64,000 nucleotides of DNA from Imbricaverruca yamaguchii (lineage: Eukaryota > Arthropoda > Thecostraca > Neoverrucidae): contig JAOTOL010001550.1 in the NCBI GenBank assembly GCA_034440575.1, positions 62,001 to 126,000 on the forward strand. The letters run 5' to 3'. Within the stretch, counting starts at the first letter, position 1, and each line of letters opens with the position of its first letter. The translations under genes were made by a program, and so were the position numbers. This document shows, piece after piece, positions 17,238 to 60,795 of the stretch. The notes under the pieces are model-generated. The model saw nothing but the letters and a program-made list of their open reading frames with translations, made no database searches and had not been told where the DNA came from.

Positions 17238-20200
17238 CTGGATGATATATAATTATTTCATTACAGTAGGTGAGAGGCAGAGTGAGTTATAAAAATACGT
17301 GGCAAGAAGTAGTATAATTGTGTGAGACATATATGAAGAGAGGAGGTCATGCGCTTCAGAGGAACCCCTGTTCTCTTCATTCGTCGAACCCAAGTATCAA
17401 GAGTTGTCACCAGATTTATAGCGTTCGTGACGTCAATTTCCTACAGCTGTTTGACTCATCCGGATCGCGTCCGTTGTACCGGGAAGTGTGGGCCAGCGGA
17501 CGGTTCGGGCGACTGTGGGTGCAGAGCCACGACATGTCCTCGAAGCACTCGGTCGAGTTGACCCCTGGCGGGGCCAGGTCGTTGTCCGTCGGGTGTGCTG
17601 CTACTGCGAGGGTTCGGCCGGGCCCAGCGTGCCGAGCGGAGGCGGCCGGCGCCGTCGCCAGTCACCACAGTGGCGCGCCGTGTGCCGTGTCGCCGGAATG
17701 TGGGCCGACCTTTGACCGACGTGCCTCCAGGGCGTGATTGTCTACACGGGGAGTGGTACGTGGCATGTGGCGGGTGTCATACACACCGTCGGTCGGCTGT
17801 GTCCGGCGCTGCCGAGGGTGACGTGACATTCTCAACACGGCAGCCGTGACTCACCAAGCCCCGCGCCACAGCTGTCGCCGGCCGGCATGCCGCTGCTGGT
17901 TGGCTGGTCGGCTCATTTGGTGTACAGTTCCACTGTTGTCTCTGGGGACTATATCAGCAATTACATATTATTCGCGAAAATGGATGGATTATATCACTAA
18001 CTGAATGTCCAATGAATCGGCATTCTCCCAGAACAGTCCTGTCATTGCGCTTCCATATGCGTATAACTAGTTTTCATGTCTCGCTTCCAGCAGTATCTTG
18101 ATATCCATCATTCACGCGAGCACTATTGCGGGCAGTGATACACCACTGTGTCTAAAGTCGGCTAATTGGGTGGAAAACATCACGCAACAGGGAACACATT
18201 TACGTCCTACGTCAGATGTCGGTCTGTTCGTTAACATTCTCCGTCGGTCTGCCTCAGTGCACCCAGAAAACCCATGATAATGAAACACACCTGGCGTGAA
18301 TGGCCGTCAATTACCGCGTGCATGTTTTTTTTCAAGCTGTGCTGGGCGATACACAACCTCATAAACGTACCATGCAATTGCGCACAAGTCAGACGTATAC
18401 ACTTCGGTTTTTGTTTGCTTTGAAAATGTTGCAATGGTGCAATCGAAGATGGCTTCGATACCGGAATTGTAAGATTAAAGAAAAGTACATCTGACGCCCA
18501 AGTGAAGCCGAATTTGGACACACTGTGATCCGCCCGCGACTTGCAGTACAATCCCAGGTATTGCTACTACCTAGGATCTATTGACACAATCATCTATTGA
18601 CACATTGTATGGGACGGGTAGTCTGGGGTTAAGTTTCCCGTTTCACATTCGAAAGATTGTAGGTTCGAGTCTCACCTGTCGCTACTCTTCGCCTGCGACT
18701 AATCGGCGTGAGAGATTGGCGACGCTATGTGACCCAACGGTCCAGGTGTCGTAAAAAAACAATAACCACCACCACCACCACGGTTCTAGGTTTCGAGACT
18801 CCCGGAACGACATCGATATCCGTACCCCATTGTTTCCATGTTGAGCTCACAGCAAATATACTAAATTTCACGTCATCCCAATATAGCCTTTTCGACATTG
18901 CACTCCTAGCGAGTACTCTTTTGACACCGCGCCTACGACTATTTCAGCTGCATCCCCGAAACACCAGGACTATATCAGCCGCGCCCATGAAACACCGGGA
19001 CTATATCAGCTGCACCCACGAAACACCAGGACTATATCAGCCGCACCCATGGAACACTGGGACTGTATCAGCCGCACCCGTGAAACACCGGGACTGTATA
19101 GGCCGCATCCACAACGCACTGGGGACTATGTTGGAACCCACGGCGCACTTTGGACGATGTCTGCTGCACCCACCACGCGTTGGGGACTATGTCGACCGCA
19201 CCCACGAAACACCGGGACTATATGGGCCGCACCTACTACACACGGGGACTGTCTGCCGTACCCATGGGACGCATGGGGACTGTCTGCCGCGTTCACGACA
19301 CACTGGGGGACTGTCTGCCGCGCTCACGACACACTGGGGACTGTCTGCCGCGCTCACGACACACTGGGGGACTGTCTGCCGCGCTCACGACACACTGGGG
19401 ACTGTCTGCCGCGCTCACGACACACTGGGGACTGTCTGCCGCGCTCACGACACACTGGGGACTGTCTGCCGCGCTCACGACACACTGGGGACTGTCTGCC
19501 GCGCTCACGACACACTGGGGACTGTCTGCCGCGCTCACGACACACTGGGGACTGTCTGCCGCGCTCACGACACACTGGGAACTGTCTGCCGCGCTCACGA
19601 CACACTGGGGACTGTCTGCCGCGCTCACGACACACTGGGGACTGTCTGCCGGACCTGTCTGGTGAAATTTCGTGGGGACGTAGGCGGAATAGACATCGAC
19701 CGGCTGCTGACCCGACCCCACTTAGTGTGCGATACACTTGAGAACCGCGGCGACTCAAACGAGTGTGGTCACACTTTCCCTGGTGTGATGACAGTGCCGA
19801 GGTGGGCACGTACGTCTCGGCGGCTGTGAGCTACGCCCCCACCCCCTCAGGTGTCTGAAACCTGGCGCCTTTGATGGTCTTTTCGGGACATCCTTGCTCT
19901 GCCGGGATTCAATCACGATTTCCATCGCTGATGAGGTGATATATCTGCTGGTCTGACTAATGTGCCCATCCCCAATCGCTGGCGAGATGGTATTTCCGCC
20001 GGTCCGTTATTGCCCCTCCCCATCGCTGGGGAGGTGACATTTCCGCCGGTCCGTCGGTCCGTTATTTGTTCACCCAGTCACGACAACCTGCGTCCGGCTC
20101 GTGACAACCAGCTTTGCTTTCGGGTCCGCTTCGTGAGGGGTTTCTCAGGAGCCGAAGTGCTGTGCGGATCGTTTCGTCAGCACGCGGAAGTACCCCGACG

Positions 20201-23200: not shown

Positions 23201-26200
23201 CTGTGACGCGGTGTGTCGCGCAGTGTTGGCTCTGTGTTTACCGCTGCGTTCCGCTGCCTGACCGCCGTGACACGCTGTGCCGCGCTGTGCCACGCTGTGA
23301 CACCCTGTGCCGCGCTGTGGCGTGCTGTGCCGCACAGCCGCACTTGGCGTCCAGCTGAGAAGCACAACTTGTCAAGGCTGTCTCCTTCAATAAAGCCAGT
23401 CGTTCAAACTGTCTCGTACACGATTTCTGTCCTCAGTAATTTACATGATAAACACGGTGCGCCGTTTCGCTGACCAGGCGCTGCCTACAGGCGTGTTTCG
23501 CAAGAGGAGGGAAATCCAATGGGACAGTCACGAGGCAGCCGGTGTCAGTAGTCGAGGACCAGCATGTGCAATTTGGCCTGTGAGGCTGAATAGAAGGAAG
23601 ACAATTTGAATGGTGGTAAAATGAACGAATTTGAGAAAATGTTACGAATGCTGTATGGCCCGCAATGCGCTCCGCTGCTGCGGTTTTGCCAATTGAGAGT
23701 CGAACGGGCGCGGTTGATGTGTCGTCCTGTGAGTGTGGCACGTCCGGGACGTGCTGTGAGTGTGGCTCGTCTGGGACGTGCTGTGAGTGTGGCTTGTCTG
23801 GGACGTGCTGTGAGTGTGGCTCGTCCGGGACGTGCTGTGAGTATGGCTCGTCTTGGACGTGCTGTGAGTGTGGCTCGTCTGGGACGTGTTGTGAGTGTGG
23901 CACGTCTGGGACGTGTTGTGAGTGTGGCTCATCTGGGACGTGCTGTGGGTGTGACTCGTCTGGGATGTGCTGTGGATGTGGTTCGTCTGGGATGTGCTGT
24001 GGGTGTGGCATGCTTGGGATGTCCTGGGGCGCCGAATAGTTTTCCATGGACGATGTACCATAGACATTTTACCACGGACGATCGATACATTGAAGTGATG
24101 AATTTTGTACACAAGGTGGAATTGCACTCCATTATTGAAGCTCATGTCTGAACACTACTCAGCACTTAGCAAAACGGCTGGAAAATTATGCAAATTATAT
24201 CATATTTTCATTACGCTGAGTCAAAGTAAGAAGTTAGTCATAAGTTGAGACGTAAAATAGCCCTCGGAAAGTTGTATGCAGCTGGCTCCGTCTGCCATCA
24301 TGCATATTAATTTCGGAATTTGGACACACTGGTGGCACCTCGCCAGAGCACGCCGCATCATGTGGGCGCAGAGTGTATCATGCCGGTCTGACCAGACGCT
24401 CTGTCCGCAGGCCGAGCTGGAGCCGGAGGCGAAACAGCGCTGGACCAAGGGCCAGTCGTTCCGGCGGCGACTCAACCGGCGCGCGTTGTCTCCGTCGCCT
24501 GCCGCCAGGGGCGCCACCCAGCCCGCCGTGTCCGACGATGCCCGGTTGGCCAAGGTGAGCGGCACCGACGCCTGTCGCGCGAACAGCGAGCGGTGGCGGA
24601 GCATTGCGCCTCTGGTTCTGGATGGTGCACGCCAGCAATGCCGGCCGTAGTTCGTGGACGGGTAGTTTAGTTTTTGCTGTTTTAACACCACACGTTTAGC
24701 TACGATGGGCACCAGCTGACATCAAAAAGCTACCCAAGTGTTTCAAAGTATTGGATTGCTTTTGAGCTCTGCATGTGTTCATTTGGTTGTCACTATCAAG
24801 CATGACATCAATTTTTGGTACCACGTTGGGGTTGCACTATGGGGATTGCGGTGTCCAGTTGTGATGTATCTCTAAAGTGAATAAAATGCCACTCCTGCAC
24901 GCGACATGTGCCGCCCCCCCCCCCCCATTGTCCAAAGTGGGTGCCGGCGACATGCACACTCCTGGCCACCAGCTGCCTGTTGGACGCACTTGATACCGCC
25001 TCTCACAGCCGTGCACAGCCGTCTGTGTCGCTCGGAACGGCGCAGGTGTCGAGAGACGGCTCTATCCGATCAGGAGTGCTCGTGCTCCGCCCAGTCGAGC
25101 TGACCACGTGACACCATGTACGTCACAGCAAGTGTTCACTAAACTGAACAGTGCATTGCGTCAGCATCTGCCGGGCAGTCTGGGGAAATGGCCAACGACT
25201 GTGGGCTGGCGTAGCTGGTCGCCTGCTGTTGGCGCCCAAAGTCGTCAGGTCGTCAGGTCGTCAGGTCAGGTCACGTCAGTGCGGTGGTGGCGGGAAAGTC
25301 GGCACACACCGGCCCAAGTGCCCCGTGGACCACCACCCAGTTTGGAGGTGCGGACTGCCTCTGTGCACTGAGCCCTGCACTAACGCCCGCCTCCGGGGTG
25401 GGAGACGCTCAGATTTACGTGCCGACCGGCGATTTGCGGTTGCTTTCACGTGATGGCGTTGGGCCAACAGCGTAGTACACCGGGCTGGCTCTGTGGCACC
25501 AGCTGACATCTCGCGCTTTACCTGAGTCCCACCGGTTGTCTGGACCTTCACGGACTGTCTGGATCCCCACCGTCTGGATCTGCGCCGGCTATTCGTATCG
25601 TCAAGAGCTGCCTGGATCTCCAATGATTGTCTGGCTCTCCACCACCCCTTCTGGATCCCTGTCCGGTCAGATCTGGGTAGGACGGTGATTTGTTGTTGGC
25701 ATCCTCCAATGGAAGACATCGCCTCCGGTTATCTACTTGGAGATTCAATCAATGCTCACCTTTTGCGTAGGTATCTGTGCGCTCCTGTGCCGATGGACGA
25801 GGTTGTGGCCACTGATGCAAGTCGGTCACGGGCTCATACACAATGTGGACTATGTGGTGTGTCATACACCCTGAGCGACCTTGCGGGTCGCTCAGGGGCT
25901 AGCAACTACCCCAGCCCCACCCCACACCGGCCCCACCCACCCTAAGTGTGGGTTATGTCCGGGCCCCACTCCTGTGTGGGTCGGTCATAGGTGTAATCTG
26001 GTCAGCAGCCCCCCCCCCCCAGTGTGGTTATGTTCGGTCCCATCTCCTGTGTGGGTCTGTCAGGAGTGTAATCTGGTCAGTAGCTGCCCCTTCCGTCCCT
26101 GTGTGGTTATGTTCGGTCCCGTCTCCTGTGTGGGTCTGTCAAGAGTGTAATCTGGTCAGCAGCTACCCCTTCCGTCCCTGTGTGGTTATGTTCGGTCTGG

Positions 26201-29200
26201 TGTGGTCATGTCTCCTGTGTGGGCGCCGCCGCCGCCGCTGCCTTCACCGCCGGCTGTGTGGTCGGGTGGCGACCCGCCGACCTTGGGCCGGCCCGGACGG
26301 CTGCCGTGTGAGCCGTCCCTACCTGCCGGCGGCCACGCTCGGGCGGCGGCAGTGCAGCTGCTACCTGTGCCGGCCGCTGCACGCCACTGCGCGGCTCTCA
26401 TCCCAGCACGTGCGGATGATATGACACGACCTGCCCGCCCGCTGTCAACCCGAGGACGGTCGACTGGGGTCGTCAGGCACGTGGTGGCGGCCTGTCGATG
26501 CTGGGTCGAATGTCGGCAGCGATCGGCACGCCTGGGCCGACACGTGTCTGCCCCACGCTATTCCACACTGAGTTACGCTGCCTCCGCCTGAGCACCATCC
26601 GTCACATGCTCGCTCCGACTGTCGCATGTCAATATCTCGTCACTTAAGACTAATAGCAGCATAAGTAATCCGGAACTGTCGCACGTCTGTTCATATCGCA
26701 TGGACCCGTCATTTGTCAGTCAAGTGTTAGCTGGTACTAGCAATCACCGGCTAGCACGCGACGTGACGGGTTAGGTATGTCACGCGCCACACCGGACAGT
26801 CGGGCAACATGGTGTCTATCCCGCCCTCGTGGCCGTCATGCAGACAGACCGGCCGGCTTCCTGTCGGTGATCGAAATTCCAGAGTGTTGGTGTTTTTCGG
26901 TGCGGCCGGGCGAGCCGCAGCGCAGTCGGTGTTTTGTGGCCGAGGTCCCAGCGTTCCCCGCCCATCTACCCGTTGTGGAGCCGTTTTTCTCCGTGTGGCG
27001 CAGTGGAATGCTGAGGTTGCGGCGGCTCACATGGTACCGAGGCAGAGTGCAGCGGTGACTTGGCTGCATGTCAGCCTGTGCCGTGCGGTGTCGCTCTGCC
27101 TCGGTCTGCACTGGTGGCGGAAGCGTGGCCGGGCAGCGCCGGCTGTGGGCGCTACAGTGTACAATGCGGCTGCTGGCTTGGCCAGCGCACTGTCCCCCGC
27201 ACCGCGCCGCCTCCCGTGTGTGCTCACCACGGTCCGGGCCGCGCCGCCTCCCGTGTGTGCTCACCACGGTCCGAGCCGCGCCGCCTCCCGTGTGTGCTCA
27301 CCACGGTCCGGGCCGCGCCGCCTCCCGTGTGTGCTCACCACGGTCCGGGCGGCGCCGCCTCCCGTGTGTGCTCACCACGGTCCGGGCCGCACCGCCTCCC
27401 GTGTGTGCTCACCACGGTCCGGGCCGCGCCGCCTCCCGTGTGTGCTCACCACGGTCCGGGCCGCGCCGCCTCCCGTGTGCTCACCACGGTCCGGGCCGCG
27501 CCGCCTCCCGTGTGTGCTCACCACGGTCCGGGCCGCGCCGCCTCCCGTGTGTGCTCACCACGGTCCGGGCCGCGCCGCCTCCCGTGTGTGCTCACCACGG
27601 TCCGGGCCGCGCCGCCTCCCGTGTGTGCTCACCACGGTCCGGGCCGCGCCGCCTCCCGTGTGTGCTTACCACGGTCCGGGTCACGCCGCCTCTCGTGTGT
27701 TCTCACCACGGTCCGGGCCGCGCCGCCTCCCGTGTGTGCTCACCACGGTCCGGGCCGCGCCGCCTCCCGTGTGCGCTCACCACGGTCCGGGCCGCGTCGC
27801 CTCCCGTGTGTGCTCACCACGGGCCGGGCCGTGCCAGCCAGCCGTCGATACAGCTGGCGACACTGTCGTCTGCGGTCCCAGCCGTCGGCTTGGAAACGCT
27901 CACCGCATGCAGCCGAACAGACCGGGTGACCCTGTGCACCATAAATCGTCGCCGCAATACGTCACGTGCCGGGTGGCGGCGAGACCTGCCGCAGCAGGGC
28001 GGGCAGCCGGTGATGGCAGTGCAGCTGGCTGGGACACGGTGCTCAGCTGTGTCGGGAGCCGGCGCCCACCTGACGACCCCGCAGACGGTCTGGTGACGTC
28101 ATGCGTTACCATACGTCGTCACGGTCTGGCGGACAGGCGCTCTTTAAACCAGCGGGCTGTCGCCGCCTGTTGGGTTCGTGACGCAGTCGTGACGTCACCA
28201 GCCGTACGGGACAGCTGGTGGGGTGAGGGGTGTGGTGGCTGTCACCCTGGCGTATACATAGTGGGAATTGAGATCTAGCAAACGGGCTGGTGCTGCGAAC
28301 TCGCCAACTTACAGCTGGGACACCAGTTCCACCCTGCTCGATGGCATCCATATGTCGCCTCGGATTTGAATTCGTTTAATTACTGGATTAGTAAACTGCA
28401 GTCCCCTGATTGATGTCAAAGCCTAACCACCAGTCGCACCCATGTAGACAATAGCATAGTGGGTGATCGCATGGGTGTTTGCTATATTTACACCGAGGAC
28501 GAGAAGTCTCATGCTGTAAATCTCACATATCCTCTTGGGACGAAATTAAGCTGGGTGACTCGACGTGGATGATTGCATGGCGAAATGATCTGTTCGTGCA
28601 ATACTGTGTTTTTCATTGCCGTTGTGTAATCTGATTGCAATTGTTCTGATCTGATCGGCAGACGTACGGTGCTGTGCCGGAGGCAGCTGATGTCATGCAC
28701 CCTGATCTGACCTGAGCTGACCTGACCTGACCTGCAGGCAAACCGTGCTACGTCAGATGGGGCCGATGCGATGAGCTCTGACCTGACCTGATATGATTTG
28801 ACCAGCAGGCGTGCGTCGCTGTACTGGAGGCAGCTGATGCCATGCACCATAATCAGACCTTCCGTGACCTGATGTGACCTGACCCGCAGGCGTACGGCGC
28901 TGTGCTGGAGGCGGCTGAGCGCGGCTCGCAAGCCGACAGCGTGAGCGTGCAGTCGGAGCGGACGACGGCCGCGGCGTCGGAGTCGGCAGGACGCGCCGCC
29001 TCGTGGGCGTACTCGTTCGAGCGGCTGCTGGACGACCCGGCCGGTCTGCACACGTTCGCCGTACGTGGCGCCGGCGGACTCGAGTCCTGCCCCACCCCAC
29101 CCTTTCCGCACGACCGGTGACTCGCCTGCGATCGTGGGGCGCTGCATGACCAACTGAGTCGACGCGCCCCTTTTCCAATAACCAACCATCACCTGTGATC

Positions 29201-32200
29201 GTGGAGGAGTGCGGGTGGGGGTGACACTGCGCGAGGAGGCGGCCGGCTGGTCGTCTTCGGACACGTTGGGCGCCTAGTTCTGGGTTCAATGCACTCGACT
29301 GTCGGCTGTGATCGGCGTGGTGTTGACATTATCAGCGCACCGCACAGGCCGATGCTTAGTTGCAATAACCGCGGCGGACTGTTGTGATTATTACCGACGT
29401 GACAATCATCGGCATGCTAGGAAGATGAATACGAAGGCCGCCACATGCTGCCGGCTGTAGAATCTAATGGGCAACAATTTAGCTGAAAAGTCCAGATCAG
29501 GCGTATGACCTCATTTCTTGCAACAGTTGATACGAGCTGACACACTTCTGATGTGCTGTGTTATCTACGTTTTCGCGTGAGTGCGTCCGCGCTGTCCGGC
29601 CGCAGCTTCCTGTCCACCGCTGCGGTCCGTTGCGGGCGTCTCGACTGTGTGCGGCCCGCTGCTGCGTCACCGTCTGACCCGCCGCCACGCTCCCCAGGAG
29701 TTCCTCAAGAGCCAGTTCAGCCACGAGAACATCTACTTCTGGGTGGCGTGCGAGCGGTACAAGCGTGTGTCGGAGCCGGACGCGCGCCGCCAGGTGGCGC
29801 TGCAGCTGTACGAGCGGCACCTGTGCGTGGGCGCGCCAGAGCCGGTCAATGTCGACAGCCAGGCGCAGCTGGCGGCGCAGGACGGCGTCGAGCAGGCGGC
29901 GGTCGGACTGTTCGACAAGGTGGGCACCCGGGGCTGAGGCCAGTCAGTGGCCAGTCAGCCGTATCGCCGCCCTGGGTAGCACTGGTGAGACTGGCGTCTC
30001 GCCCCTCACACTCCTTCACCGAGTGTTGTGTGGTCAGGTGACCATACACTCGGGAATGTTTAAGGGGAAAAGCTGGGGTTCAAGTACCCCAGTTGCTCCC
30101 AATTGTCCCCAGGTCCCCACGATTTTTTTCACTTAAGGACACTGAAGAATAATCCTGCGTCTCACAGACCAGGCTGCACCACTGCAGCCTTATCAAGGTG
30201 CCCCTAACGAAGAGCAGCAAGGAAGTATAGGCCCTCCTTGACGCAGTCATATTGCATATTGGAGGAAAATTTACCCAATTGGACAGGGTCATACTATCAC
30301 ATATTGAGGGGTCATGGCAACTTTCTGAAGTCTTCAAATACCATTTCACTGTTTAATGTGCCCTTCTGGTAACTCGGTTTGCCCATTGGACGGCTTGGGC
30401 AAGGGTTTGGAATATCAGGGATGTCCTTTGTAACCCAGAATGCCTTGCAACCAAGTGGAACGACCTTCCGGTTGCGAAGTGTCCCTTGCTGGCGTTACAG
30501 TGCCTTTGCCATCAATTGAAATTGCTCCCAGATGGATACATCCTTAGCCCGGTGAAGTTGACCTCAATGGTTCGGTTTTTCGGATTTCTTTACCAAAATT
30601 GTATGTGCACGTGTGCACAATAGTCTGCAAAAAGTGTGCAAAAAGTGCAAAAAGTGCCCCAGGCGAAACAAAAACGGTAGGTGCACCGCCTCCCGAACCT
30701 CGTGTGCTATATCTCGACTGTTGCCTTCACTGCAGATCGGATGAAGTTAAAGACAAGGTGAAGCCTGCACTGGCCCTGTTTTAGCTGCCGGCGTCTACAC
30801 CCCATGTTTCATTGGCTGTTCGATGAACGCGCCGCCGCCGCCGTCCCCATCGGTCACGCTGTGTGGATGTCCGCAGGCGCAGCAGCAGATCTTCAGTCTG
30901 ATGAAGTACGACTGCTACCCGCGCTTCCTCAAGGCCTCCATCTACACCGACTGTATGTCGCGAGAGGCTGCTGGTCAGAAGCTGCCCTACCTGGGCGGCG
31001 ACGCACTGGACCCCGACCTGAGGCTACAGCCTGATGGCCATGACCAGGTACTGCCCTGACACCGGCCCTAGCCTGACCCTTACCTGACCCTTACCTGAGG
31101 CTACAGCCTGATGACCAGGACCAGGTACTGTCCTGACACCGGCCCTAGCCTGACCCTTGCCTGACCCTTACCTGACCCTTACCTGACCCTTACCTGACCC
31201 TTACCTGAGGCTACAGCCTGATGACCAGGACCAGGTACTGCCCTGACACCGGCCCTAGCCTGACCCTTACCTGACCCTTACTCGAGGCTACAGCCTGATG
31301 ACCAGGACCAGGTACTGTCCTGACACCGGCCCTAGCCTGACCCTTACCTGACCCTTACTCGAGGCTACAGCCTGATGACCAGGACCAGGTACTGTCCTGA
31401 CACCGGCCCTAGCCTGACCCTTGCCTGACCCTTACCTGACCCTTACCTGACCCTTACCTGACCCTTACCTGAGGCTACAGCCTGATTACCAGGACCAGGT
31501 ACTGTCCTGACACCGGCCCTAGCCTAACACTTACCTGACCCTTACCCGAGGCTACAGCCTGATGACCAGGACCAGGTACTGTCCTGACACCAGCCCTAAC
31601 CTGACCCTGACGTGAGGTTGCGGCCTGATGACCAGGACCAGGTACTGTCCTGACTGGCCCTAACCTGAGGCTTCAACCTGATAATCAGAGCCAGGTACTG
31701 TCCTTACCCTAGTCTGATACTGTCTCTCCCTTAGTCCGACGTCGACACGCAGCAATAGCACTGACCCTGACCTTAACCGCAGTCGACTTCAGTGTGTGCC
31801 CGATGAATGTCAGTGCAGCCATGAAGGCCTGCATCGCTGTAGCACAGCACCACGAAGTTGGATCCACCGCTTGGCATGTGGTTGTGCGTTGTGCTGGTGT
31901 CATCGTGTGTCAAGCGGGCTGCTTGCTAACGCTCCGAGCACGCCGGAGACTTAGTCGTTCCTGTGAGTCGTCGAGTAGGTCGATCGCCAGCTGCGACTCG
32001 GACCCGGCATTGTGTCAGGTCGAGTGGGTGAGTCGCGAACTTCGACTCGGACCCGGCGGTGTGTGTCGTCGCTAAACTGACTCGCCTTCCGCCAGAAGCA
32101 TACCAAGAAGGCCGGCAAACCGGAGCTTGGCGAGCAGCGACGCCGCAAGTCGCTGCTGCCGTGGCACCGCAAGGATCGCTCCAAGTCCAAGGACCGCGGC

Positions 32201-35200
32201 GAGACAGAGTACAAGCGGAAGAAGCGCCTGCGCGAGCGCGAGGAGACCGGCTCGGTGCGCAGCGATCTGTCCGGTAGTCGGACGTCCCTGGCGTCGGCCG
32301 ACCTGGCCACAATACACCGCAACGCCGTCAGCAAGGAGGTGAGACTACCACACACAGGCGATCATTGTTCAGTCAGCCATAGGCGAGACCACCACACAGG
32401 TGATCAGTCAACAATGGGCGACACCGCCACGCAGGTCATCAGTCAGAAATGGGCGAGACCACCACACAGGTTATCAGTCAACAATGGGCGACACCGCCAC
32501 ACAGGTCATCAGTCAGAAATGGGCGTTACCACCACACAGGTGATCAGTCAACAATGGGCGACACCGCCACACAGGTCATCAGTCAGCAATGGGCGATACC
32601 ACCACACAGACCGGTGCTTCAACTGGCCGTTCGCGCTTCGTCGGCGACTTGTCTCGGCTGTCCGTCCACAGCCCTATCAGGGTCGACGTCCTGTGGTGTG
32701 CTGTGTCCACACAGGAACAGTAACCGCCGCTGTGTCGCCAGCGAGTTGTATCAGACACGCCCGTGTGTCACCACGTGTGACACGTGTGTTACTCCACGTG
32801 TGTTACGCCACGTGTGTTACTCCACGTGTGACACGTGTCTCCACGCGTTCCGGCAGTCGCTGGTGTCGGGCGAGGGCGGCGCGGCGGCCGCCTCCGACCC
32901 CGAGTGCCTCCTGTGCCGCGTTCTGCTGCCCGACTCCAGCTCGGCCGTGGTGCAGGCGACGCCGGACGTCTCTGTCCGTGTCATGCTGCAGCGGCTGCTG
33001 GACCGGCGCGGCCTGTCCTACAGCTCCTGGGACGTCTACCTGGCCGACAGCGACAGGGTGAGTATTGGACCGTCTGCCATAGGACCTGCTCTACAGCTCC
33101 CGGGACGTCTACCTGGCCGACAGCGACAGGGTGAGTATGGCACCGTCTGCCATACATCTGCCATGGGGCCTGCCCTACACATCCAGGGGTGTCTATCTGG
33201 CCGGTAACGACAGGGTGAGAATTGGACCGTCTGCCATAGGGCCTGCCCTACACATCCTGGGGTGTCTATCGGGTCGGTAACGACGGGGTGAGTATTGGAC
33301 CGTCTGCCATAGGACCTGCCCTACATGGGACGTCTACCTGGCCGACAGCGACAGGGTGAGTATGGCACCGTCTGCCATACATCTGCCATAGGGCCTGCCC
33401 TACACATCCTGGGGTGTCTATCGGGTCGGTAACGACGGGGTGAGTATTGGACCGTCTGCCATAGGACCTGCCCTACATGGGACGTCTACCTGGCCGGCAG
33501 CGTCAGTGTGAGTATTGGACCGTTTGCCGTAGGGCCTGCCCTACAGCTCCCATAACGTCAACCTGGTCAGCAGCAACACCGTGAATGTCTGGGCTAGGCA
33601 GAGGTAGGAGGGAGGGAACCATTAGCCATCCAAAATTCGAAGATTACTGATCAGCCAGGCTTAAGTGCGAGAAGTCGGAAAGCACAATGGGACTAGCTTA
33701 ATATCCAGATGTATGCCGTCACTTCCTACGAAGCCAGGGACTTCCAGATTGCACCGTCCCTCACCCCTTGTGGCAGATTTTAAGAGAAATTCGCGTGGAT
33801 GTGCAAAGTTCGGAAATATCGGCACTTTTTGGTCAGGTAATACTTTTTCAGACGTTCCTTACATATAACCTGCATGTGTAAGAGTTTTGCAATTATAAGG
33901 ATCACAAAAATAACTCGCCCATCGAGTTGAAGAGGATTGTCTGAATGTCCCGGCGTACCGCCTCCCTGGTGTGAACGAGGTAACCCAAGTGTAAGATGCA
34001 CCCAACCCAACCTAACCTAACCTAACCTAACCTAACCTAACCTAACTTAACCTAACCTAACCTAACCCAACCTAACCTAACCTAGGTTAGGTTAGGTTGT
34101 CGAATACTGCAGTGAGGGCCACTGTACCAGTGTGTCGGGTACCGTGGTGACGGCCCTGTCTGACCACAGCCGCTGGACCAGTCGCTCGACTCGTGCTGTT
34201 TGGGCTGCAAGGAGATACGCATGGAGCAGCGCGTGCTGTTCCGTGTCGACCTGCCCAACCAGAAGACGATCGGGGTCAAGGCCAAGCCCAACCGGCTTGG
34301 TTGCGATGTGCTCAAGCCTATCCTCGCCAAGTACGGCTTCAAGCTGGAAGGCGTGCTCGTGTACGAGGTGAGAAGAGACCAGGTGTGGATGCCACACTGA
34401 GATAAGTGCATTGCTGCTAGTGCTAAACTTACAACGCTGACTGGTATAGCCGAACCGTTTTCTCGCGATTTGTGTGAGTTTGCGTATTTTGCCACCTCGT
34501 CGCGCTGTTCCAGCGTGATGCCACGTGTCCCGAGTTCTGCGGCGTGTTGCAGTAAGACGCCATGGGCCCATGTGTGGTGTTGTGCAGGATGTCACAGTGC
34601 GACGGTTCGTGTTGCAGTAAGACACCATGGGCCTATGTGTGGTGTTGTGCAGGATGTCACAGTGCGACGGCTCGTGTTGCAGTAAGACACCATGGGCCCG
34701 TGTGTGGTGTTGTGCAGGATGTCACAGTGCCACGGCTCGTGTTGCAGTAAGACATGGATCCATGTGTGGTGTTGTGCGGTGTGTCACGGTGTGACGGCTC
34801 GTGTTGCAGTAAGACACCATGGGCCCGTGTGTGGTGTTGTGCAGGATGTCACAGTGCCACGGCTCGTGTTGCAGTAAGACATGGATTCATGTGTGGTGTT
34901 GTGCGGTGTGCCACGGTGTGACGGCCTGCGTTGCACTAAGCCGCCACGTGCTCGTGTGTGGTGTTGTGCGGTGTGTCAGTGTGACGGCTCGTGTTGCAGT
35001 AGGACGTCAGCCCATGTATGGTGTTGTGCGGTGTGTCACAGTGTGACTGGGGGACGAGTAGCCCAGGGGTAAGTTGCTCGTCTCACAATTGAAAGGTTGT
35101 GGGTTCGAGTCGCCCACGACCAATCGGCGTGAGAGATGGGCGACGCTACGTGACTCAACGGTCGATGTGTCGTAAAACCAATAACCAACCAATCACAGTG

Positions 35201-38200
35201 TGACGGCTCGCGTTGCAGTAAGACGCCACGGGCTCATGTGTGATGTTGAGCGGTGTGTCACGGCGTGACGGCTCGTGTTGCAGTCGGATGGCGCCGGCCC
35301 GCTCGACCTCAAGTCGTCGGTGACGCGGCTCGACAACCGCAACCTGGTGGTGAAGTGGCGCGAGGAGGGTGGCGGTGCGGCCGACCTGCGCCGGCCCTTC
35401 CCCAGTCTGGACGAGATCACCAACCGCGTGTTCGAGGACCTGCTCAAGGGCAAGTCGGACGGCAGCTTCGACGACTTCGGCATCATCGACTTCGACCAGA
35501 ACTCCACCAAAGTGGGTGCTCTCTGCTGCCAGCCAGCTATCTGTACCGATTCAGCGGGCCAACCTCGCGGTTCAGTGGTCTCTGTTGCTTGCTTACTATG
35601 TGCACTGATTTAGAGGGCCAACTTCGTGGTTGTCGTCTGCCGCTATGTTGATGCTTACGTATTTTGTTATTATGTTTTCCTAGCGAAGATCACGTTGATC
35701 TGACTATCGTGGAAGGCTCAGATTCAGAAGCCGCACCAATGTCCGGGAACTCAGGTTTTGCTTCCCAATTGGTTTCTATGAAACTTCACGACACGCAACT
35801 GTAGTAACTAGTACTTTTTCATCATGCTTGATTCCTGGCATTTGTACCATCACAATCGTGCCAGCAGATACTATGTTCATGTCCCCCTTTGTCGGCACTT
35901 TTTCGTACCATGTTGGCAAATTGTTTCGACATTCTGAAAGGTTTTGATGTCTTCGCTTGCTGCCCTTGACGCTACGAAGAAAAGCAAACCAGTTCACTGG
36001 CCCTGGGCTGCGCTTTAACCAGAATGCAAGCTGTGCAATTATGGGGCAGCAACTGAAGGAGTCTGCAGTTGGATTGCTGTTGGGCTGTTGAGGTGTTGTA
36101 TGAATAATGTCTCGGTTGGCTTAATGTGGCCGTGAGTCCGATAAATCACCAGTCTGATGGCGACTGGTGGCTAGTTTGTGTCGGCGGACGGATGGTTACC
36201 AGGCCGGCACGTGCCACACGGCCAGCGTGTGACTAGCCCCGACAGTCCCGCTGCTCCAGTGAACGGTGGGAAAGTGGCCAGTTTAGCACCTCAAATCATA
36301 TTGTCTATCGTAGAAGAGAAATTATACACTTTTGGCGTATTATATTGAATTAAATCCAATACGAATGGTATTTCATTCCGACAAATATTTCGGCGGGTGT
36401 TGTGTGGAATTGGTTTGTCGGCTAATAATTGGCTGCTTTTATGCGAGTCCAGATAAATCGACCCAGGAGTTTCCGAAACAAAATATGTCGTTTTGTCTCT
36501 TCTTGTTGTCGGTTTCCCTTGCAAAGTTTTTAACAAAAGTATATGAGTTGCTTATTTCCGAGAAGTACAACAGTGTCCTAAAGTTACTTCACCATTAACT
36601 GTGTGGATGAAGGAAGAAGTTGCTTGGGAATAGTGAAAGATTGGAAGAGAATAAAGGATTGCCACTTAAGGATTAAAAAGCGGAATGCCTTTCGCTTCAG
36701 TCACATGCATTTTACATTATTTAGCAGTTGTGTGCATGACTGCACATACATCATGTGACAAAATGGTAAAAACCGAAGGCGAGGATTAAATACCACAACT
36801 CCATTAACTGTGCATTTCCAGGCCACATGGTGAATTATTTTACACTGAAGTACAATATAGTTTAAAAGACAATTTTCTGCTCTATGACATCCATTTCTTG
36901 GAACATTTTCAAACCAAACTTTTTTTTAGTTTCGCGTTGTTAAATTTGACATTTCCCACCGCGCAATGTCCTGAAAAGAATGCTTTGTAAAGTGGTGGTT
37001 ATCAGGACAAGACGCCAAAACCAGGCAGGACTCAAAAAGAAATTGGGCATGCAGCATATATTTCGTGGCATTAATATGGAGAAGGTAACATGTTGATATA
37101 CCTATTATTTAATGGCATTAACATATGGAAAATAGTGAAGTATGTGGAGTGATGTAGTTCGATGATGTCCCTTTTATAGAAGCCATATCAGTTGGTGAAA
37201 ACTGTGGTCCAGTCTATCAAGACCAGTTCCTATTAGGTGCTGGTCTCCATTTACATTTTGCAGTTCCAAGCCACCGTCCAGCCTTCGCTGACGGCATCAG
37301 CACCGGCCGTGACATGTGTCCCCTGTCGACAGACGGACGGCAGTTCGGACCGGTCGTCGGGTCTGGCGTCGCTGGTACATCAGCGCCGGCCCTGACATGT
37401 GTCCCCTGTCGACAGACGGACGGCAGTTCGGACCGTTCGTCGGGTCTGGCGTCGCTGGTACATCAGCACCGGCGGTGACATGTGTCCCCTGTCAACAGAC
37501 GGACGGCAGTTCGGACCGGTCGTCGGGTCTGGCGTCGCTGGTGCGCCGGAACTCGCTCACCTCCGGCCGTGACGGCCGCCGCGCGCACCGTCACCAGCTG
37601 GCGGCCGACAGGTCCGACCTGCAGCTGGGTCCGCCGCCGCCACCGCCGCCGCCGCCGCCCCGACTCGCCGACACCAAGGAGACTGACGGTGAGCGCTGCG
37701 GCCGGCGCCGCGAGCGACGACTCCCTGGTGCGCGCTTCCGTTCCATTTGCTTGTTATACGTTTTATTAGTTTAGTTTGATATTTTTCTTCTTTTGTTTGT
37801 TTTGTTTGTTTTTTATTCTATTCGGGTGCGTGTTGTGGTGACGGGCAGTGTCGGCCGACAGGAGTGTAATTTGGCGCGGTGCCACCGCTGGGAGAATGGC
37901 TCCAGTTTGCGGTTGTAGCGCCAGTGATACGACCGCCCCGACTCGTTAACAGCCCGCATGCAGCGGGACAGGTACTCCAGCACCCCTTTGGTCAGACTAG
38001 CTTCAAATTATTCCGCGATAAATGCGCATTAACTGACTGGAGTCCGCCGTGTGCCGGTCTAATGGCTCAGTGTCGCCGTGTTGTGTGCCCTGCTGCTGTC
38101 CCCCTGACCTGGCGATATCATGCTGGCGACAGTTGCGCTGTACGAGGGTCTGAAGCGTGCCCAGATGTGCCGTCTGGACGACCAGCGCGGCACCGAGATC

Positions 38201-39230
38201 AACTTCGAGCTGCCAGAGTTTCTGAAGAGGAGAGAGGCCGTTCAGGTCAGCACGGAGGCGCTCCGGTCCGCCGGAGGGGGGGGGTCCAGCTGTCATTTGA
38301 AGGGCATTTGTATGGCTGGTAACGTTTATGTGATCCGTCTATTCGCGCCGATTGGTGGTGGTTCCCGTACAACCTTTGGCCACGTGTTGTGCAATTGTGT
38401 TAAAATCGCTCATTTCAGCTGCTGTGCCTTGCCTGACAGGGTCGTTTTTCACTGGCATGAAATATTGCCATTTGTAGCTCTTTATGTGACGTTACTCGGT
38501 TAACTCATGATGTACGGTGTCTATGTAAATATGTCACTTCATGTTCATGTCACTTCTTACACAGTGTGTGTGTGTGTGTGTGCGTCATTTGCTCTCTCAT
38601 TTGCTCCTACAGAACAAGGAGAACTACCAGCCGCCGCGGCTGAGTGAGCAGGTTCACCTGCGGCGGCGCGTGCCGCCAGCCGCCGAGCACCGGCACTCAC
38701 TGGTGGCGACGGCACGCTCCTCGGCCGAGACGGCGCTGCCGGCCGGCTGGCGGTGCCGGCAGCTGGTGGGCGGCGGCATCCTGCCCACCGACCAGCAGGC
38801 CGAGCAACTGTTCCAGACCGAGCTGCACACGTCTGGCCGGCTCAGTCTGGGTCTGGGCGACGGCGGCCACCTGGCGTGCCCGGCCATGCCGCGCCTCACG
38901 CCGCGCCGGCCCGAGCCCGAGCGAGACGCGCCGGCCACACCGCTGCCGACGCCGCCCGAGCCGCTGGCTACCTCGCTGCATCTGGCCGAGGCCGACTTCT
39001 CGCCGCCCACGCCGCTGGCCGAGCCGGCACTGCGAGCCCGCGCGGCCGGCCCCGCCGCCGCCACGCCGCCGCCGCCGCTGCCACCGAAGCCCAAACTGCT
39101 GGCGCGCGGCGCGCCGCCGCCGCCGCGGCCGCCCGCCCGGCCGGCGGCCGCCGACGAGCTGGCCGCCGGCAGGTCGCGCAAACCCATCTACCTGGACAAG
39201 GCCGAGAAGCTCAACATCAGCTTTGTGTAG
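11531..39230 (+). CDS. loco: Loco/RGS12-like regulator of G-protein signalling, 12 exons, 859 aa
   Basis: Exons: 11531-11611, 24411-24554, 28890-29060, 29698-29919, 30877-31047, 32096-32338, 32857-33057, 34170-34367, 35284-35511, 37499-37688, 38133-38245, 38613-39230. They total 2580 nt with no internal stop, and every intron is GT-AG. Domain order: RGS about residues 113-245, basic linker 264-344, Ras-binding-like domains about 360-530, GoLoco 617-654, Ala/Pro-rich tail 655-859. Known family role: the RGS domain speeds GTP hydrolysis by Gi/o alpha subunits, the GoLoco motif holds Gi-alpha in the GDP state, and the RBDs bind small GTPases or MAP-kinase components at the membrane or in the cytoplasm. 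RGS residues that contact G-alpha in the family are present (E142-N143, N183, L214, D218, R222). The GoLoco D-Q-R triad is D633-Q634-R635. No PDZ or PTB domain was found, so a longer isoform may start upstream. Introns 1-9 and 11 are phase 0; intron 10 is phase 1. I saw no AATAAA within 2 kb after the stop. Confidence 0.9.
11926..12090 (+). mobile_element. tRNA-derived SINE, copy C (diverged)
   Basis: The head GGGATCGCGGTAGCTCAGTC has a good A box; the B box is altered (TCTCGAATCTC). The body keeps AATCGACGTGAGAGG and CACGCTATGCAAC, and the tail GCGTCATAAAATAATCC. GTAC-rich imperfect repeats flank it at about 11892-11922 and 12100-12146. Confidence 0.7.
13023..13775. repeat. 28 bp minisatellite carrying TGACGTGA
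   Basis: About 26 copies of GTCCTGCGGTGTGACGTGAC plus TGTCGTCA, in intron 1 of the loco-like gene. Most units hold TGACGTGA, close to a CRE/ATF site. Two units have a shorter GTCGCTGGTCGGCGG variant. Confidence 0.95.
14455..14585. repeat. Degenerate repeat of GGTTATGGTTATCAACCA type
   Basis: About five loose copies of an approximately 24-26 bp unit with internal dyad symmetry (GGTT...AACC). Confidence 0.7.
15003..15375. repeat. 9 bp CACTGCCAG array
   Basis: About 41 copies of CACTGCCAG with CAACACTGC and CACGGCCAG variants. It has no stop in most frames and yields a 274-residue low-complexity frame on the minus strand. Confidence 0.95.
15376..15480. repeat. 23 bp tandem repeat
   Basis: About four to five copies of GTACAGAGGCAGGTGTGCTG plus CCC, directly after the 9 bp array. 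Confidence 0.85.
15518..15852. repeat. CCCAC/CCTAC pentanucleotide tract
   Basis: An irregular mix of CCCAC, CCTAC and CCATA over about 335 bp, strongly pyrimidine-strand biased (C/A on top, almost no G). Confidence 0.95.
16480..16735. repeat. 44 bp repeat with alternating subtypes
   Basis: About six copies ending GGGACAGGTGTGTCCAGTTG plus TCCAGTTGG. Units beginning CCTCGGGCTACGGC and TCTTTAGCCGCGGC alternate, a two-unit higher-order pattern. Confidence 0.9.
17138..17234. repeat. (TA)n microsatellite
   Basis: An almost perfect TA run of about 97 bp, self-complementary. It lies in intron 1 of the loco-like gene. Confidence 0.97.
18611..18782 (+). mobile_element. tRNA-derived SINE, copy B
   Basis: Same family as the copy at 35048: a tRNA-like head with B box GGTTCGAGTCTC, the body AATCGGCGTGAGAGATTGGC, GACGCTATGTGACCCAACGG and a tail GTCGTAAAAAAACAATAACC ending in a CCA run. 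No clear target-site duplication. It lies in intron 1 of the loco-like gene. Confidence 0.8.
18950..19655. repeat. 30-31 bp minisatellite, divergent to homogeneous
   Basis: About 23 copies. The left half (18950-19240) is diverged (ACACCGGGACTATATCAGCC...). The right half (19250-19655) is nearly uniform (GCGCTCACGACACACTGGGG plus ACTGTCTGCC). This is a gradient of homogenisation within one array. Confidence 0.93.
20720..21062. repeat. Degenerate approximately 33-36 bp repeat
   Basis: About nine copies built on GTGACCTGTGTCGCGGCCAC plus TGGTGAACCA. Confidence 0.85.
22350..22718. repeat. 45 bp minisatellite
   Basis: Eight copies of GTCGCGCTCTGGGTGACGTG plus ACTCTCACGGAGACCGGCCG and ACAGT. The unit is a multiple of 3, which explains the long open frames on both strands. 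Confidence 0.95.
23735..24030. repeat. 27 bp minisatellite
   Basis: About 11 copies of GCTGTGAGTGTGGCTCGTCT plus GGGACGT, decaying toward the right end. Confidence 0.95.
24411..24554 (+). CDS. loco: loco-like exon 2, linker before the RGS domain
   Basis: The acceptor ctgtccgcag precedes 48 in-frame codons ([20 protein letters not shown]...) ending at AAG before the donor gtgagc, phase 0 at both ends. It encodes a basic, Ser-rich segment upstream of the RGS domain. It sits in a stretch with no tandem repeats. Confidence rests on matching phase, good splice sites and position. Confidence 0.7.
25960..26215. repeat. Approximately 78 bp tandem repeat, three copies
   Basis: Units run from GTGTGGTTATGTTCGGTCCC through TCTCCTGTGTGGGTCTGTCA to the next GTGTGG. 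Confidence 0.85.
27199..27828. repeat. 37 bp minisatellite
   Basis: About 17 copies of TGTGCTCACCACGGTCCGGG plus CCGCGCCGCCTCCCGTG. One copy lacks TGTG. The unit length is 1 mod 3, giving a 37-residue period in each of several open frames; the longest is 489 codons (26809-28278). Confidence 0.96.
28650..28889 (+). repeat. Tandem copies of the intron 2 acceptor and exon 3 start
   Basis: Exon-like starts after AG at 28662, 28738 and 28809 precede the real start at 28890. Each has a CTGACCTGA-rich lead-in and a cag. The copies at 28662 and 28809 then resemble the first about 30 coding bases (ACGTACGGTGCTGTGCCGGA versus GCGTACGGCGCTGTGCTGGA). The unit is about 71-81 bp. Confidence 0.85.
28890..29060 (+). 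CDS. loco: loco-like exon 3, start of RGS domain
   Basis: 57 codons follow the acceptor gacccgcag. The last 20 residues ([20 protein letters not shown]) are the first helices of an RGS domain and run directly into EFLKSQF in exon 4. The donor is gtacgt, phase 0. Three degenerate copies of its acceptor plus first coding bases lie upstream at about 28650-28889. Confidence 0.92.
29698..29919 (+). CDS. loco: loco-like exon 4, core of RGS domain
   Basis: 74 codons after the acceptor tccccag. The signature [20 protein letters not shown] is the most conserved RGS stretch, including the Glu-Asn pair that touches G-alpha switch regions. [10 protein letters not shown] follows, which carries the conserved Asn. 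It ends LFDK before the donor gtgggc, phase 0. The flanking introns have no tandem copies of this junction. Confidence 0.96.
30877..31047 (+). CDS. loco: loco-like exon 5, end of RGS domain
   Basis: 57 codons after the acceptor tgtccgcag. [20 protein letters not shown] is the closing helix pair of the RGS fold, with the Asp and Arg that complete the G-alpha interface. The exon ends with [10 protein letters not shown] before gtactg. In-frame read-through stops four codons later. Eight further copies of this exon end plus donor follow in the intron, so the exact donor in use should be checked against RNA. Confidence 0.9.
31019..31700 (+). repeat. Tandem copies of the exon 5 end and intron 5 donor
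   Basis: The real donor GT is at 31048. Copies with CTGATGACCAGGACCAG before gtactg occur at 31125, 31235, 31312, 31389, 31499, 31576, 31642 and 31695. Spacings of 77, 110, 77, 77, 110, 77 and 66 are multiples of an 11 bp subunit (cctgaccctta); the last spacing, 53, is not. Confidence 0.93.
32096..32338 (+). CDS. loco: loco-like exon 6, basic linker
   Basis: 81 codons after ttccgccag. The core [20 protein letters not shown] is a strongly basic segment that I recognise as conserved in loco/RGS12 relatives between RGS and RBD. It could act in nuclear targeting or phospho-regulation, which is an inference from the basic and Ser-rich composition. It ends NAVSKE before the donor gtgaga, phase 0. 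Confidence 0.92.
32318..32615 (+). repeat. Decayed tandem copies of the exon 6 end and intron 6 donor
   Basis: Units of about 34-40 bp follow the exon end (GTCAGCAAGGAGgtgagact) and keep the pattern GTCAGCAATGGGCGATACCA then CCACACAGGTGATCA. The donor GT has become GC in the copies, giving GGGCGA instead of GAGgtga, while CAGGTGATCA remains a new donor-like site in some. Confidence 0.7.
32857..33057 (+). CDS. loco: loco-like exon 7, first Ras-binding-like domain
   Basis: 67 codons after ttccggcag, starting SLVSGEGG and running through [16 protein letters not shown] and [20 protein letters not shown], the ubiquitin-like beta-beta-alpha pattern of RBD1. It ends DSDR before gtgagt, phase 0. Seven tandem descendants of the exon end plus donor follow in the intron. 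Confidence 0.93.
33003..33590 (+). repeat. Tandem copies of the exon 7 end and intron 7 donor
   Basis: The real donor GT is at 33058. Donor-like GTs recur at 33131, 33215, 33288, 33355, 33440, 33508 and 33581 with spacings of 67-85 bp. Most copies repeat GACGTCTACCTGGCCGACAG and gtgagtattgg. Confidence 0.93.
34001..34098. repeat. Interstitial telomere-like tract with head-to-head inversion
   Basis: (CCTAA)n, the complement of the arthropod telomere motif TTAGG, runs to 34084 with a few variants (CCCAA, CTTAA). It then inverts at the palindrome CCTAGG into GGTTAGGTTAGGTT. It lies in intron 7 of the loco-like gene. Confidence 0.9.
34170..34367 (+). CDS. loco: loco-like exon 8, RBD1 to RBD2
   Basis: 66 codons after tgaccacag. 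It completes RBD1 ([20 protein letters not shown]) and starts RBD2 ([20 protein letters not shown], then [20 protein letters not shown]). The donor is gtgaga, phase 0. The acceptor lies 71 bp after an interstitial telomere-like tract. Confidence 0.95.
34537..35283 (+). repeat. Tandem copies of the intron 8 acceptor
   Basis: Units of about 62-65 bp end in TGACGGCTCGTGTTGCAG followed by TAAGAC. Decoy AGs end at 34552, 34617, 34682, 34747, 34809, 34874, 34999 and 35218; one copy near 34935 has lost its AG (TTGCAC). The real acceptor ends at 35283. Only intron-side bases are copied. A SINE interrupts the array at 35048-35192. Confidence 0.9.
35048..35192 (+). mobile_element. tRNA-derived SINE, copy A, with target-site duplication
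   Basis: The 5' part has pol III promoter boxes: an A box (TAGCCCAGGGG) and a B box (GGTTCGAGTC). A family-specific body (AATCGGCGTGAGAGATGGGC...) and an A/C-rich tail (AAAACCAATAACCAACC) follow. A 12 bp duplication TCACAGTGTGAC flanks it at 35036-35047 and 35193-35204. It sits inside the intron 8 repeat array, so it inserted after that array formed. Confidence 0.85.
35284..35511 (+). CDS. loco: loco-like exon 9, end of RBD2
   Basis: 76 codons after cgtgttgcag. It begins [20 protein letters not shown], the closing strand of RBD2, then passes into an acidic linker ([16 protein letters not shown]). The donor is gtgggt, phase 0. An array of about 65 bp units carrying copies of this acceptor precedes it. 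Confidence 0.92.
37316..37540 (+). repeat. 83 bp tandem copies of the intron 9 acceptor and exon 10 start
   Basis: Exon-like starts at 37333 and 37416 precede the real start at 37499, exactly 83 bp apart. All three share the acceptor CCCCTGTCGACAG (CAACAG in the last) and the coding bases ACGGACGGCAGTTCGGACCG through GGCGTCGCTGGT. Confidence 0.95.
37499..37688 (+). CDS. loco: loco-like exon 10, Ser-rich linker with polyproline
   Basis: 63 codons plus one base after gtcaacag. [20 protein letters not shown] has possible RxxS kinase sites. It is followed by a run of about ten prolines and RLADTKETD. The donor is gtgagc, phase 1, matching exon 11. Two exact-register 83 bp copies of acceptor plus exon start lie just upstream. 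Confidence 0.88.
38133..38245 (+). CDS. loco: loco-like exon 11, GoLoco motif
   Basis: The split codon joins to give V, then [20 protein letters not shown] and [17 protein letters not shown]. This is a complete GoLoco (G-protein regulatory) motif with its D-Q-R triad; in the family the Arg reaches the nucleotide pocket of Gi-alpha-GDP. The acceptor is ggcgacag, the donor gtcagc, phase 1 in and phase 0 out. Confidence 0.97.
38613..39230 (+). CDS. loco: loco-like exon 12, Ala/Pro-rich C-terminus
   Basis: 205 codons and a TAG stop after the acceptor ttgctcctacag. The tail is rich in Pro, Ala and Arg, has SH3/WW-ligand-like proline runs, and ends [16 protein letters not shown]. The last residues fit a class I PDZ ligand (Ser at -2, Val at 0). 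A (TG)n tract at about 38562-38582 precedes the acceptor. Confidence 0.9.
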   Translation, partial: NKENYQPPRLSEQVHLRRRVPPAAEHRHSLVATARSSAETALPAGWRCRQLVGGGILPTDQQAEQLFQTELHTSGRLSLGLGDGGHLACPAMPRLTPRRPEPERDAPATPLPTPPEPLATSLHLAEADFSPPTPLAEPALRARAAGPAAATPPPPLPPKPKLLARGAPPPPRPPARPAAADELAAGRSRKPIYLDKAEKLNISFV

Positions 39231-59640: not shown

Positions 59641-60795
59641 TTGCGACACGCCGGCGTGGTCAGCAACCCCACCCGGCGTGGTCAACAACTCCACCCGGCG
59701 TGGTCAGCAACCCCACCCGGCGTGGTCAGCAACCCCACCCGGCGTGGTCAGCAACCCCACCCGGCGTGGTCAACAACTCCACCCGGCGTGGTCAGCAACC
59801 CCACCCGGCGTGGTCAACAACTCCACCCGGGGTGGTCAGCAACCCCACCCGGCGTGACCAGCAACCCACCAGGCGTGGCAGGCAACCCCACCCGGCGTGG
59901 CCAGCAACCATACCCGCGGCGGCCAGCAACCCCACCCGGCGTGGTCAGCAACCACACCCGGCGTGGTCAGCAACCCCACCCGGCGTGGTCAACAACTCCA
60001 CCCGGGGTGGTCAGCAACCCCACCCGGCGTGGTCAACAACTCCACCCGGCGTGGTCAACAACTCCACCCGGCGTGGTCAGCAACCCCACCCGGCGTGGTC
60101 AGCAACCCCACCCGGCGTGGTCAGCAACCCCACCCGGCGTGGTCAACAACTCCACCCGGGGTGGTCAACAACTCCACCCGGGGTGGTCAGCAACCCCACC
60201 CGGCGTGACCAGCAACCCACCAGGCGTGGCAGGCAACCCCACCCGGCGTGGCCAGCAACCCCACTCGGCGTGGTCAGCAACCATACCCGCGGCGGCCAGC
60301 AACCCCACCCGGCGTGACAGGCAACCCCACCCGGCGTGGTCAGCAACCCCACCCGGCGTGGTCAACAACCCCACCCGGCGTGGTCAGCAACCCCACCCGG
60401 CGTGGCCAGCAACCCCACCCGGCGTGGTCAGCAACCCCACCCGGCGTGGCCAGCAACCCCACCCGGCGTGACCAGCAACCCCACCCGGCGTGGCCAGCAA
60501 CCCCACCCGGCGTGGCCAGCAACCCCACCCGGCGTGGCCAGCAACCCCACCCGGCGTGGTCAGCAACCCCACCCGGCGTGGTCAACAACCCCACCCGGCG
60601 TGGCCAGCAACCCCACCCGGCGTGGCAGGCAACCACAGCCGGCGTGGCCAGCAACCCCACTCGGCGTGATCAGCAACCATACCCGGCGCGACCAGCAACC
60701 CTACCCGGCGCGGCCAGCAACCCGCTCGGCGCGACCAGCAACCCTACCCGGCGCGGCCAGCAACCCGCTCGGCGTGGCCAGCAACCCCACCCGGG
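59641..60795. repeat. 22 bp minisatellite
   Basis: About 52 copies of GGCGTGGTCAGCAACCCCAC plus CC, with CAGCAACC/CAACAACT and GGTCAG/GGCCAG variants. A block containing GACCAGCAACCCACCAGGCG is repeated at about 59850 and 60210, so part of the array was duplicated as a longer segment. Confidence 0.96.

Follow-up and report, generated by a model that had tools for sequence, protein, structure and literature searches.

Tandem arrays in the genome of the barnacle Imbricaverruca yamaguchii start at exon edges 2.3- to 3.4-fold more often, depending on the method, than repeat density or base composition predicts. This excess, supported by exon edges sampled from several protein families, provides the frame for a stretch of 64,000 nucleotides (GenBank assembly GCA_034440575.1, contig JAOTOL010001550.1, positions 62,001 to 126,000 of the forward strand; hereafter the window), which carries on the + strand, at 24412..39230, a loco/RGS12-14-like gene (hereafter loco) with 11 recognised coding exons, E1 to E11. 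The original prediction, made for this window, stated that six exon edges of loco each carry an array copying the adjoining splice junction and suggested either a process favouring duplication at such junctions or selection that tolerates or keeps the decoys. Here, we describe the distribution of array starts around exon edges, the composition of the loco arrays, and the mechanism by which they may have emerged.

Excess of Array Starts at Exon Edges

At distances up to 40 bp from a junction, arrays start at a density of 2.98 per kb as compared to 0.62 per kb deep in introns (261 edges plus 26 edges of a kinesin replicate). In the set of 266 edges, starts per available kb number 0.1-0.2 in the exon interior, 2.3 at -40 to 0, 3.7 at 0 to 40 and 0.7 at 100 to 430, delimiting a broad zone of excess from about -40 to +60 bp with the peak at +10 to +40. 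A junction-centred 30-mer has a local copy belonging to the first unit of an array at 16 of these 266 edges (one more edge possesses a copy outside the first unit), and the density of first-unit copies equals 0.5% in exons, 6.0% at the junction, 11.3% at +30 to +50 and 1-3% beyond 150 bp. The excess of starts is in favour of the suggested process; the share of copies is lower on the junction proper than in the interval of +30 to +50. First-order shuffles of the 266 sampled edges yielded zero arrays by our own detector, so the arrays as such are not a product of chance.

Comparison of array positions with the expectation from repeat density, proposed along with the original prediction, returned an excess in the sampled genes by every approach applied. 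Matching for the content of guanine and cytosine (GC) gave a ratio of 3.37 (2.43-4.56), with 61 starts observed and 18.1 expected over 287 edges; for the 126 long-flank edges only, 22 starts were observed versus 7.9 expected. Calculated against the pooled deep rate, the GC-matched ratio equals 3.8 for myosins, 2.9 for CCT, 3.6 for SNF and 2.8 for kinesins. Gene-clustered bootstrap over 261 edges resulted in 3.38 (2.53-4.63) for the arrays of our own detector and 2.32 (1.66-3.32) for those of Tandem Repeats Finder (TRF), while under the dinucleotide model 2.6- to 3.3-fold excess remains. It is therefore quite unlikely that base composition alone produces the effect, in terms of exon edges being GC-rich and GC-rich DNA making more arrays. 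The dependence itself is real: at least 200 bp from the edge, the start rate grows from 0.17 to 1.16 per kb between the lowest and the highest GC class (8 starts in 46999 bp and 15 in 12955 bp), and array-bearing edges are richer in GC than others (0.62 vs 0.57-0.58), but 2.3- to 3.4-fold excess is left after GC or dinucleotide matching.

Donors and acceptors show a similar excess, and this speaks against any cause limited to a single type of splice site. Intron length is roughly known for 197 of 266 edges; among these, introns of 600-1500 bp have the excess on their intron side, and it becomes strongest in those of at least 1.5 kb, where 31 starts fall into 8.6 kb near the edge versus 24 starts into 30.3 kb at 100-430. 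Short introns as a cause were rejected since the excess peaks in these long introns, those of 100-600 bp giving no clear signal. Altogether, an array starts within 40 bp at 56 of 261 edges, that is, at about one in five; the repeated block covers the splice site at 24 of the 261, and in over half of the 56 edge arrays the site stays outside the block.

Sampling of Exons and Assembly Quality

The genome assembly tested comprises 767 Mb in 1430 contigs. Exons encoding myosin heads, CCT chaperonins and SNF transporters, each taken together with flanking sequence of some 450-1500 bp (loci L002-L141), were hand-picked from hidden Markov model (HMM) tables of 72, 66 and 97 rows; 156 rows were chosen and 155 covered, with exclusion mainly of rows containing several stops, domain ends, intronless genes and rows without sequence. 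The splice-score filter was passed by 273 edges, of which 266 were retained after dropping similar flanks and flanks shorter than 300 bp, and 261 after dropping five edges on haplotig contigs C89 and C207, some of which had represented a C1012 partner, itself removed earlier as a duplicate. The kinesin replicate took 14 of 126 rows and 26 of 28 edges, raising the total to 287; its three tests, for array starts, junction copies and decoy retention, were fixed in advance of sequence retrieval. Junctions were called by the end of the HMM match and a splice-site score built from general knowledge, so some of them may be misplaced, and deep stretches may include a neighbouring exon, which would slightly lower the deep rate.

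Haplotig pairs (C89/C1012 and C207/C1273) seem to persist in the assembly, as follows from loci L046/L047, L052/L053, L055/L056 and L037/L038, which are 94-99% identical and differ in some repeat lengths. On contigs C1272 and C1274 (L014, L017, L018 and L015, L023, respectively), one part of the myosin head is matched several times at short distances, in the manner of the alternative exons known from muscle myosin.

Tandem repeats are prone to misassembly, and the original prediction had admitted that the copies might be artefacts of this kind. Retention of some haplotigs adds to such suspicion, but the explanation appears scarcely credible. Array units diverge from one another, edge arrays are found in all four families, and in a CCT gene assembled separately on haplotigs C89 and C1012, one and the same acceptor is overlain by a 76-bp array, counting 6.6 and 6.7 units. 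In this one pair, a 30-bp array differs more in size, 7.9 versus 10.6 units by TRF. For loco, a search with one stretch (window 33000-33360) gave no second copy within the assembly.

Arrays of the loco Gene

Exons of loco were read off the sequence and then backed by tblastn with protein relatives, including the loco-like protein of Pollicipes pollicipes, the best of them (76% identity) (Table 1). An upstream part of the gene, corresponding to residues 1-37 of the Pollicipes protein, could not be located. Introns numbered 2, 5, 6, 7, 8 and 9 in the original prediction correspond to those after E1, E4, E5, E6, E7 and E8.

Table 1. Coding exons of loco and tandem arrays at their edges (window positions)
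Feature	Positions	Strand	Remarks
E1	24412-24554	+	sequence reading and tblastn
E2 (start of RGS region)	28890-29060	+	sequence reading and tblastn
E3	29698-29919	+	sequence reading and tblastn
E4	30877-31047	+	sequence reading and tblastn
E5	32096-32338	+	sequence reading and tblastn
E6	32857-33057	+	sequence reading and tblastn
E7	34170-34367	+	sequence reading and tblastn
E8	35284-35511	+	sequence reading and tblastn
E9	37499-37688	+	sequence reading and tblastn
E10	38133-38245	+	sequence reading and tblastn
E11	38613-39230	+	
Degenerate array across E2 acceptor	28647..28918	+	copies at -228, -152 and -81 from junction 28889/28890
77-bp array	31009..31704	+	copies E4 end and donor
35/70-bp array	32369..32609	+	starts 30 bp into the intron after E5; not a junction copy
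14-bp array	32781..32830	+	ends 26 bp before the first base of E6; absent from the original prediction
73-bp (compound 152) array	33010..33545	+	copies E6 end and donor
65/127-bp array before E8	34543..35283	+	34543-35225 by own detector
83-bp array, 3 units	37295..37542	+	copies acceptor and E9 start

With a full junction copy defined as 15 + 15 nt across the junction identical in at least 25 of 30 positions, copies reaching into the intron were found at 4 of 20 internal edges of loco, namely, the E2 and E9 acceptors and the E4 and E6 donors. The most regular ladder follows E4, where copies at +77, +187, +264, +341, +451, +528 and +594 from 31047/31048, and a weaker one at +647, all keep CCAG|GTAC, and the seven full copies have the 9-nt donor motif identical to that of the real site. 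After E6, six full copies lie at +73, +157, +230, +298, +382 and +450 from 33057/33058; all of them keep GTGA, with scores from 6.3 to 9.8 versus 9.8 for the real site. The E9 acceptor is preceded by two copies, at -166 and -83 from 37498/37499, identical in 39 of 40 positions. The array across the E2 acceptor is irregular and carries splice-site copies only weakly: one copy reaches the 25/30 threshold, and over 40 nt three copies match in 28, 32 and 33 positions.

The two other proposed cases turned out to be different. At the E8 acceptor (35283/35284), the intron-side 20 nt recur seven times at 17-19 of 20 identical positions, and the exon-side 20 nt have no recurrence at 16/20 or better, hence only the intron half of the junction is copied. 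For the E5 donor, neither the junction nor any one of its two sides recurs in ungapped form; by eye, the beginning of the intron resembles the repeat unit with a gap, the counterpart of GT being GC, and the units contain CACAGGT. This array begins 30 bp inside the intron, and the claim that all six cases are junction copies is not supported. The E11 acceptor (38613) lacks a local copy, with the best match of 16/30.

With head-to-tail units of 14, 35, 65, 73, 77 and 83 bp, the loco arrays comply with the definition of a minisatellite, and within them the units diverge from one another. Differences between the arrays in unit length and sequence, as the original prediction had noted, suggest that they arose independently.

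The array before E8 is broken at about 35040-35180 by an element resembling a short interspersed nuclear element (SINE) derived from tRNA; a similar-looking element of this type (by eye) is seen at about 18600-18760 of the window, and ARAGORN called no tRNA in the window. The intron after E6 contains a telomere-like (TTAGG)n repeat with an inverted junction (window 34000-34110), TTAGG being the telomere unit of arthropods.

Chance Overlap and the Typical Character of loco

Repeats cover 24.7% of the window, including very long tandem arrays outside the recognised gene (55293-57235, 59651-60794 and 62141-63999). One may suppose that in a repeat-rich genome arrays overlap junctions by chance and a striking gene was merely picked out. 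Indeed, repeats occupy a quarter of the window, a local copy is found for 24% of intronic positions versus 20% of junctions within loco, and loco does not differ from the sample in array starts. This occupancy comparison, showing no excess, was nevertheless rejected as uninformative and replaced by first-unit copies and array starts, because array interiors consist of later-made copies inflating the background. With arrays collapsed to the first unit, about 6% per edge, or about 1.2 of the 20 loco junctions, is expected to have a copy versus 4 observed. A single gene picked post hoc is unable to decide the question of chance; together with the genome-wide excess, these counts make chance overlap extremely unlikely.

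The notion of loco as an exceptional gene had to be abandoned. Of its 20 edges, 7 have an array start within 60 bp, the sample giving 65 of 261 (p=0.30); within 40 bp, the counts are 4 of 20 and 56 of 261, respectively. Strict junction copies differ somewhat (4 of 20 versus 16 of 266, p=0.041), but the difference is not compelling since the gene was chosen for its striking look. Thus loco looks like a typical illustration of what is apparently a genome-wide property.

Emergence of Edge Arrays

We see about an even chance that these minisatellites were seeded by short tandem duplications at exon edges and amplified in introns due to mutational bias, decoy splice sites being tolerated by-products. 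Such duplications, with units mostly of 30-110 bp, would span or abut the exon edge, seed a minisatellite and then be amplified within the intron; they would arise at exon edges more often than elsewhere owing to some mutational bias tied to exon boundaries, which transcription, splicing or a chromatin boundary might render prone to it. The duplicates may survive because splicing uses the copy on the exon side, which leaves the coding sequence undamaged, and the ladders of decoys would drift neutrally rather than serve as a selected device.

For the 24 arrays covering a splice site, the number of junction copies per repeat unit, counted with a lenient 14/20 match, has a median ratio of 1.1. 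About one junction copy per unit in most arrays implies that the seed duplication probably contained the junction. Near and deep arrays are equal in identity (0.919 and 0.916) and, in untruncated flanks, in length (155 and 160 bp for 22 and 41 arrays, respectively, p=0.80), thus the near ones do not look older. An apparently greater length of near arrays (248 vs 116 bp) was discarded as a probable effect of flank truncation. The model of arrays creeping outward until the exon stops them was rejected as well, since lengths of near and deep arrays are equal and junction copies match units in most cases.

The main rival to seeding at exon edges, which we consider unlikely, assumes that duplications arise evenly and that those near exons last longer, because the exon would suffer from large deletions or insertions next to it. 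Selection gives exon-proximal DNA a relative protection, and the narrowness of the zone and its presence at both kinds of exon edge suit this explanation. It is opposed by the equal identity and length of near and deep arrays and by the deep rate, which is hardly altered by masking interspersed repeats detectable within the sample. Moreover, since a deletion on the intron side can still remove an array, sheltering is reasoned to give at most about 2-fold enrichment versus 2.3 to 3.4 measured.

Several points speak against preferential seeding at exon edges or restrict it. The duplication bias is deduced from array density, and its cause we infer; shelter of exon-proximal intron DNA from deletions and insertions may supply a part of the excess. 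Three of the 24 site-covering arrays have far fewer junction copies than units, and the 20 edges in introns of 100-600 bp, with 1 start within 40 bp, have no clear excess. Four conserved families of a single genome supplied all 287 edges of the sample. Kinesins make a small replicate (26 edges, with 5 near starts and junction copies at 3), and its ratio leans on the pooled deep rate because its own 3.4 kb of deep sequence contains zero starts.

With less confidence, we tentatively extend the idea of seeding by duplication to exon edges as hot spots of tandem duplication in this lineage, where some process coupled to exon definition, splicing or transcription could seed minisatellites at both kinds of junctions genome-wide. 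If the bias is mutational, gene structure is linked to the sites of duplication, and additional splice sites would be supplied and introns lengthened continually; if the hot spots are real, the same supply of splice-site copies and growth of introns would yield raw material for new splice forms.

Fate of Splice-Site Copies

Decoy sites might be kept by selection as tuners of splicing or spare sites, which we find very unlikely. On the face of it, their preservation is impressive: GT or AG is retained in 74 of 81 copies from 26 arrays, the per-array retention of 0.938 exceeds the 0.72 that 76 other arrays give for matched dinucleotides (a value as high was reached in 4 of 5000 draws), kinesins retain 7 of 7 copies in 3 arrays, and the best decoys of E4, E6 and E9 score as high as the real site. 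However, the real site cannot change and only one branch diverges, so the proper expectation is the square root of 0.72, that is, 0.85, and 0.938 is only about 1.2 standard deviations above it. At a stricter threshold, retention falls to 0.85 in 16 arrays versus 0.75 (GT) and 0.82 (CT) for controls, with no excess once corrected. Of the 19 copy offsets in loco, 13 are out of frame, and extension to the E4 donor decoy meets a stop at once (by eye). Furthermore, a decoy function leaves it unexplained that blocks cover the splice site in only 24 of the 56 near-edge arrays. Selected decoys were therefore rejected, as the raw contrast weakens after both the fixed-site correction and the stricter threshold; retention of GT/AG is about as expected under neutrality and does not require selection. 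If the sample is representative, the genome offers very many natural tests of how the spliceosome chooses among near-identical sites.

Comparison with Known Systems

Single minisatellites carrying splice sites were known before, while searches of an open-licence library yielded no precedent for a measured excess of tandem arrays at exon edges. A genomic background comes from another crustacean, Daphnia pulex, where tandem repeats are densest in introns, although units longer than 8 bp are much rarer there than in other regions (PMC3152781). The same source defines minisatellites as tandem units of about 10-100 bp; its passages on intronic repeats do not discuss proximity to exons, and the word 'splice' is absent.

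Internal tandem repeats located at exon-intron boundaries were described for human genes in segmental duplications (PMC2812944). Like the arrays considered here, these are minisatellites, some of them at exon-intron boundaries; their units are of about 30 bp, and they can change splicing. The relevant passages of that work deal with variation between paralogs and mention no boundary excess, in contrast to the enrichment at exon edges in the barnacle. Tandem duplication across an intron-exon boundary was also implicated in the gain of an intron (PMC4974935), and the likeness consists in a boundary-spanning duplication that copies splice signals. There, a new intron arose, whereas barnacle copies sit inside existing introns. 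Intron gain by duplication of an AGGT segment, in which an exonic segment makes a new intron, was not found in loco: its copies lie inside introns and contain junction or intron sequence rather than a purely exonic segment.

Another counterpart is the minisatellite of the human gene 6-16 (IFI6) with multiple splice donor sites (Turri et al., 1995, by its title as cited in PMC4526556), whose units, as those of the barnacle, supply splice donors. In loco, units carrying a splice site copied from the edge are observed at the E4 and E6 donors and the E9 acceptor, weakly at the E2 acceptor, from one side only at E8 and not at E5. Judging by the title, the IFI6 case concerns one interferon-induced transcript; in the barnacle, known from DNA alone, both donors and acceptors of many genes are involved, with a measured excess at exon edges.

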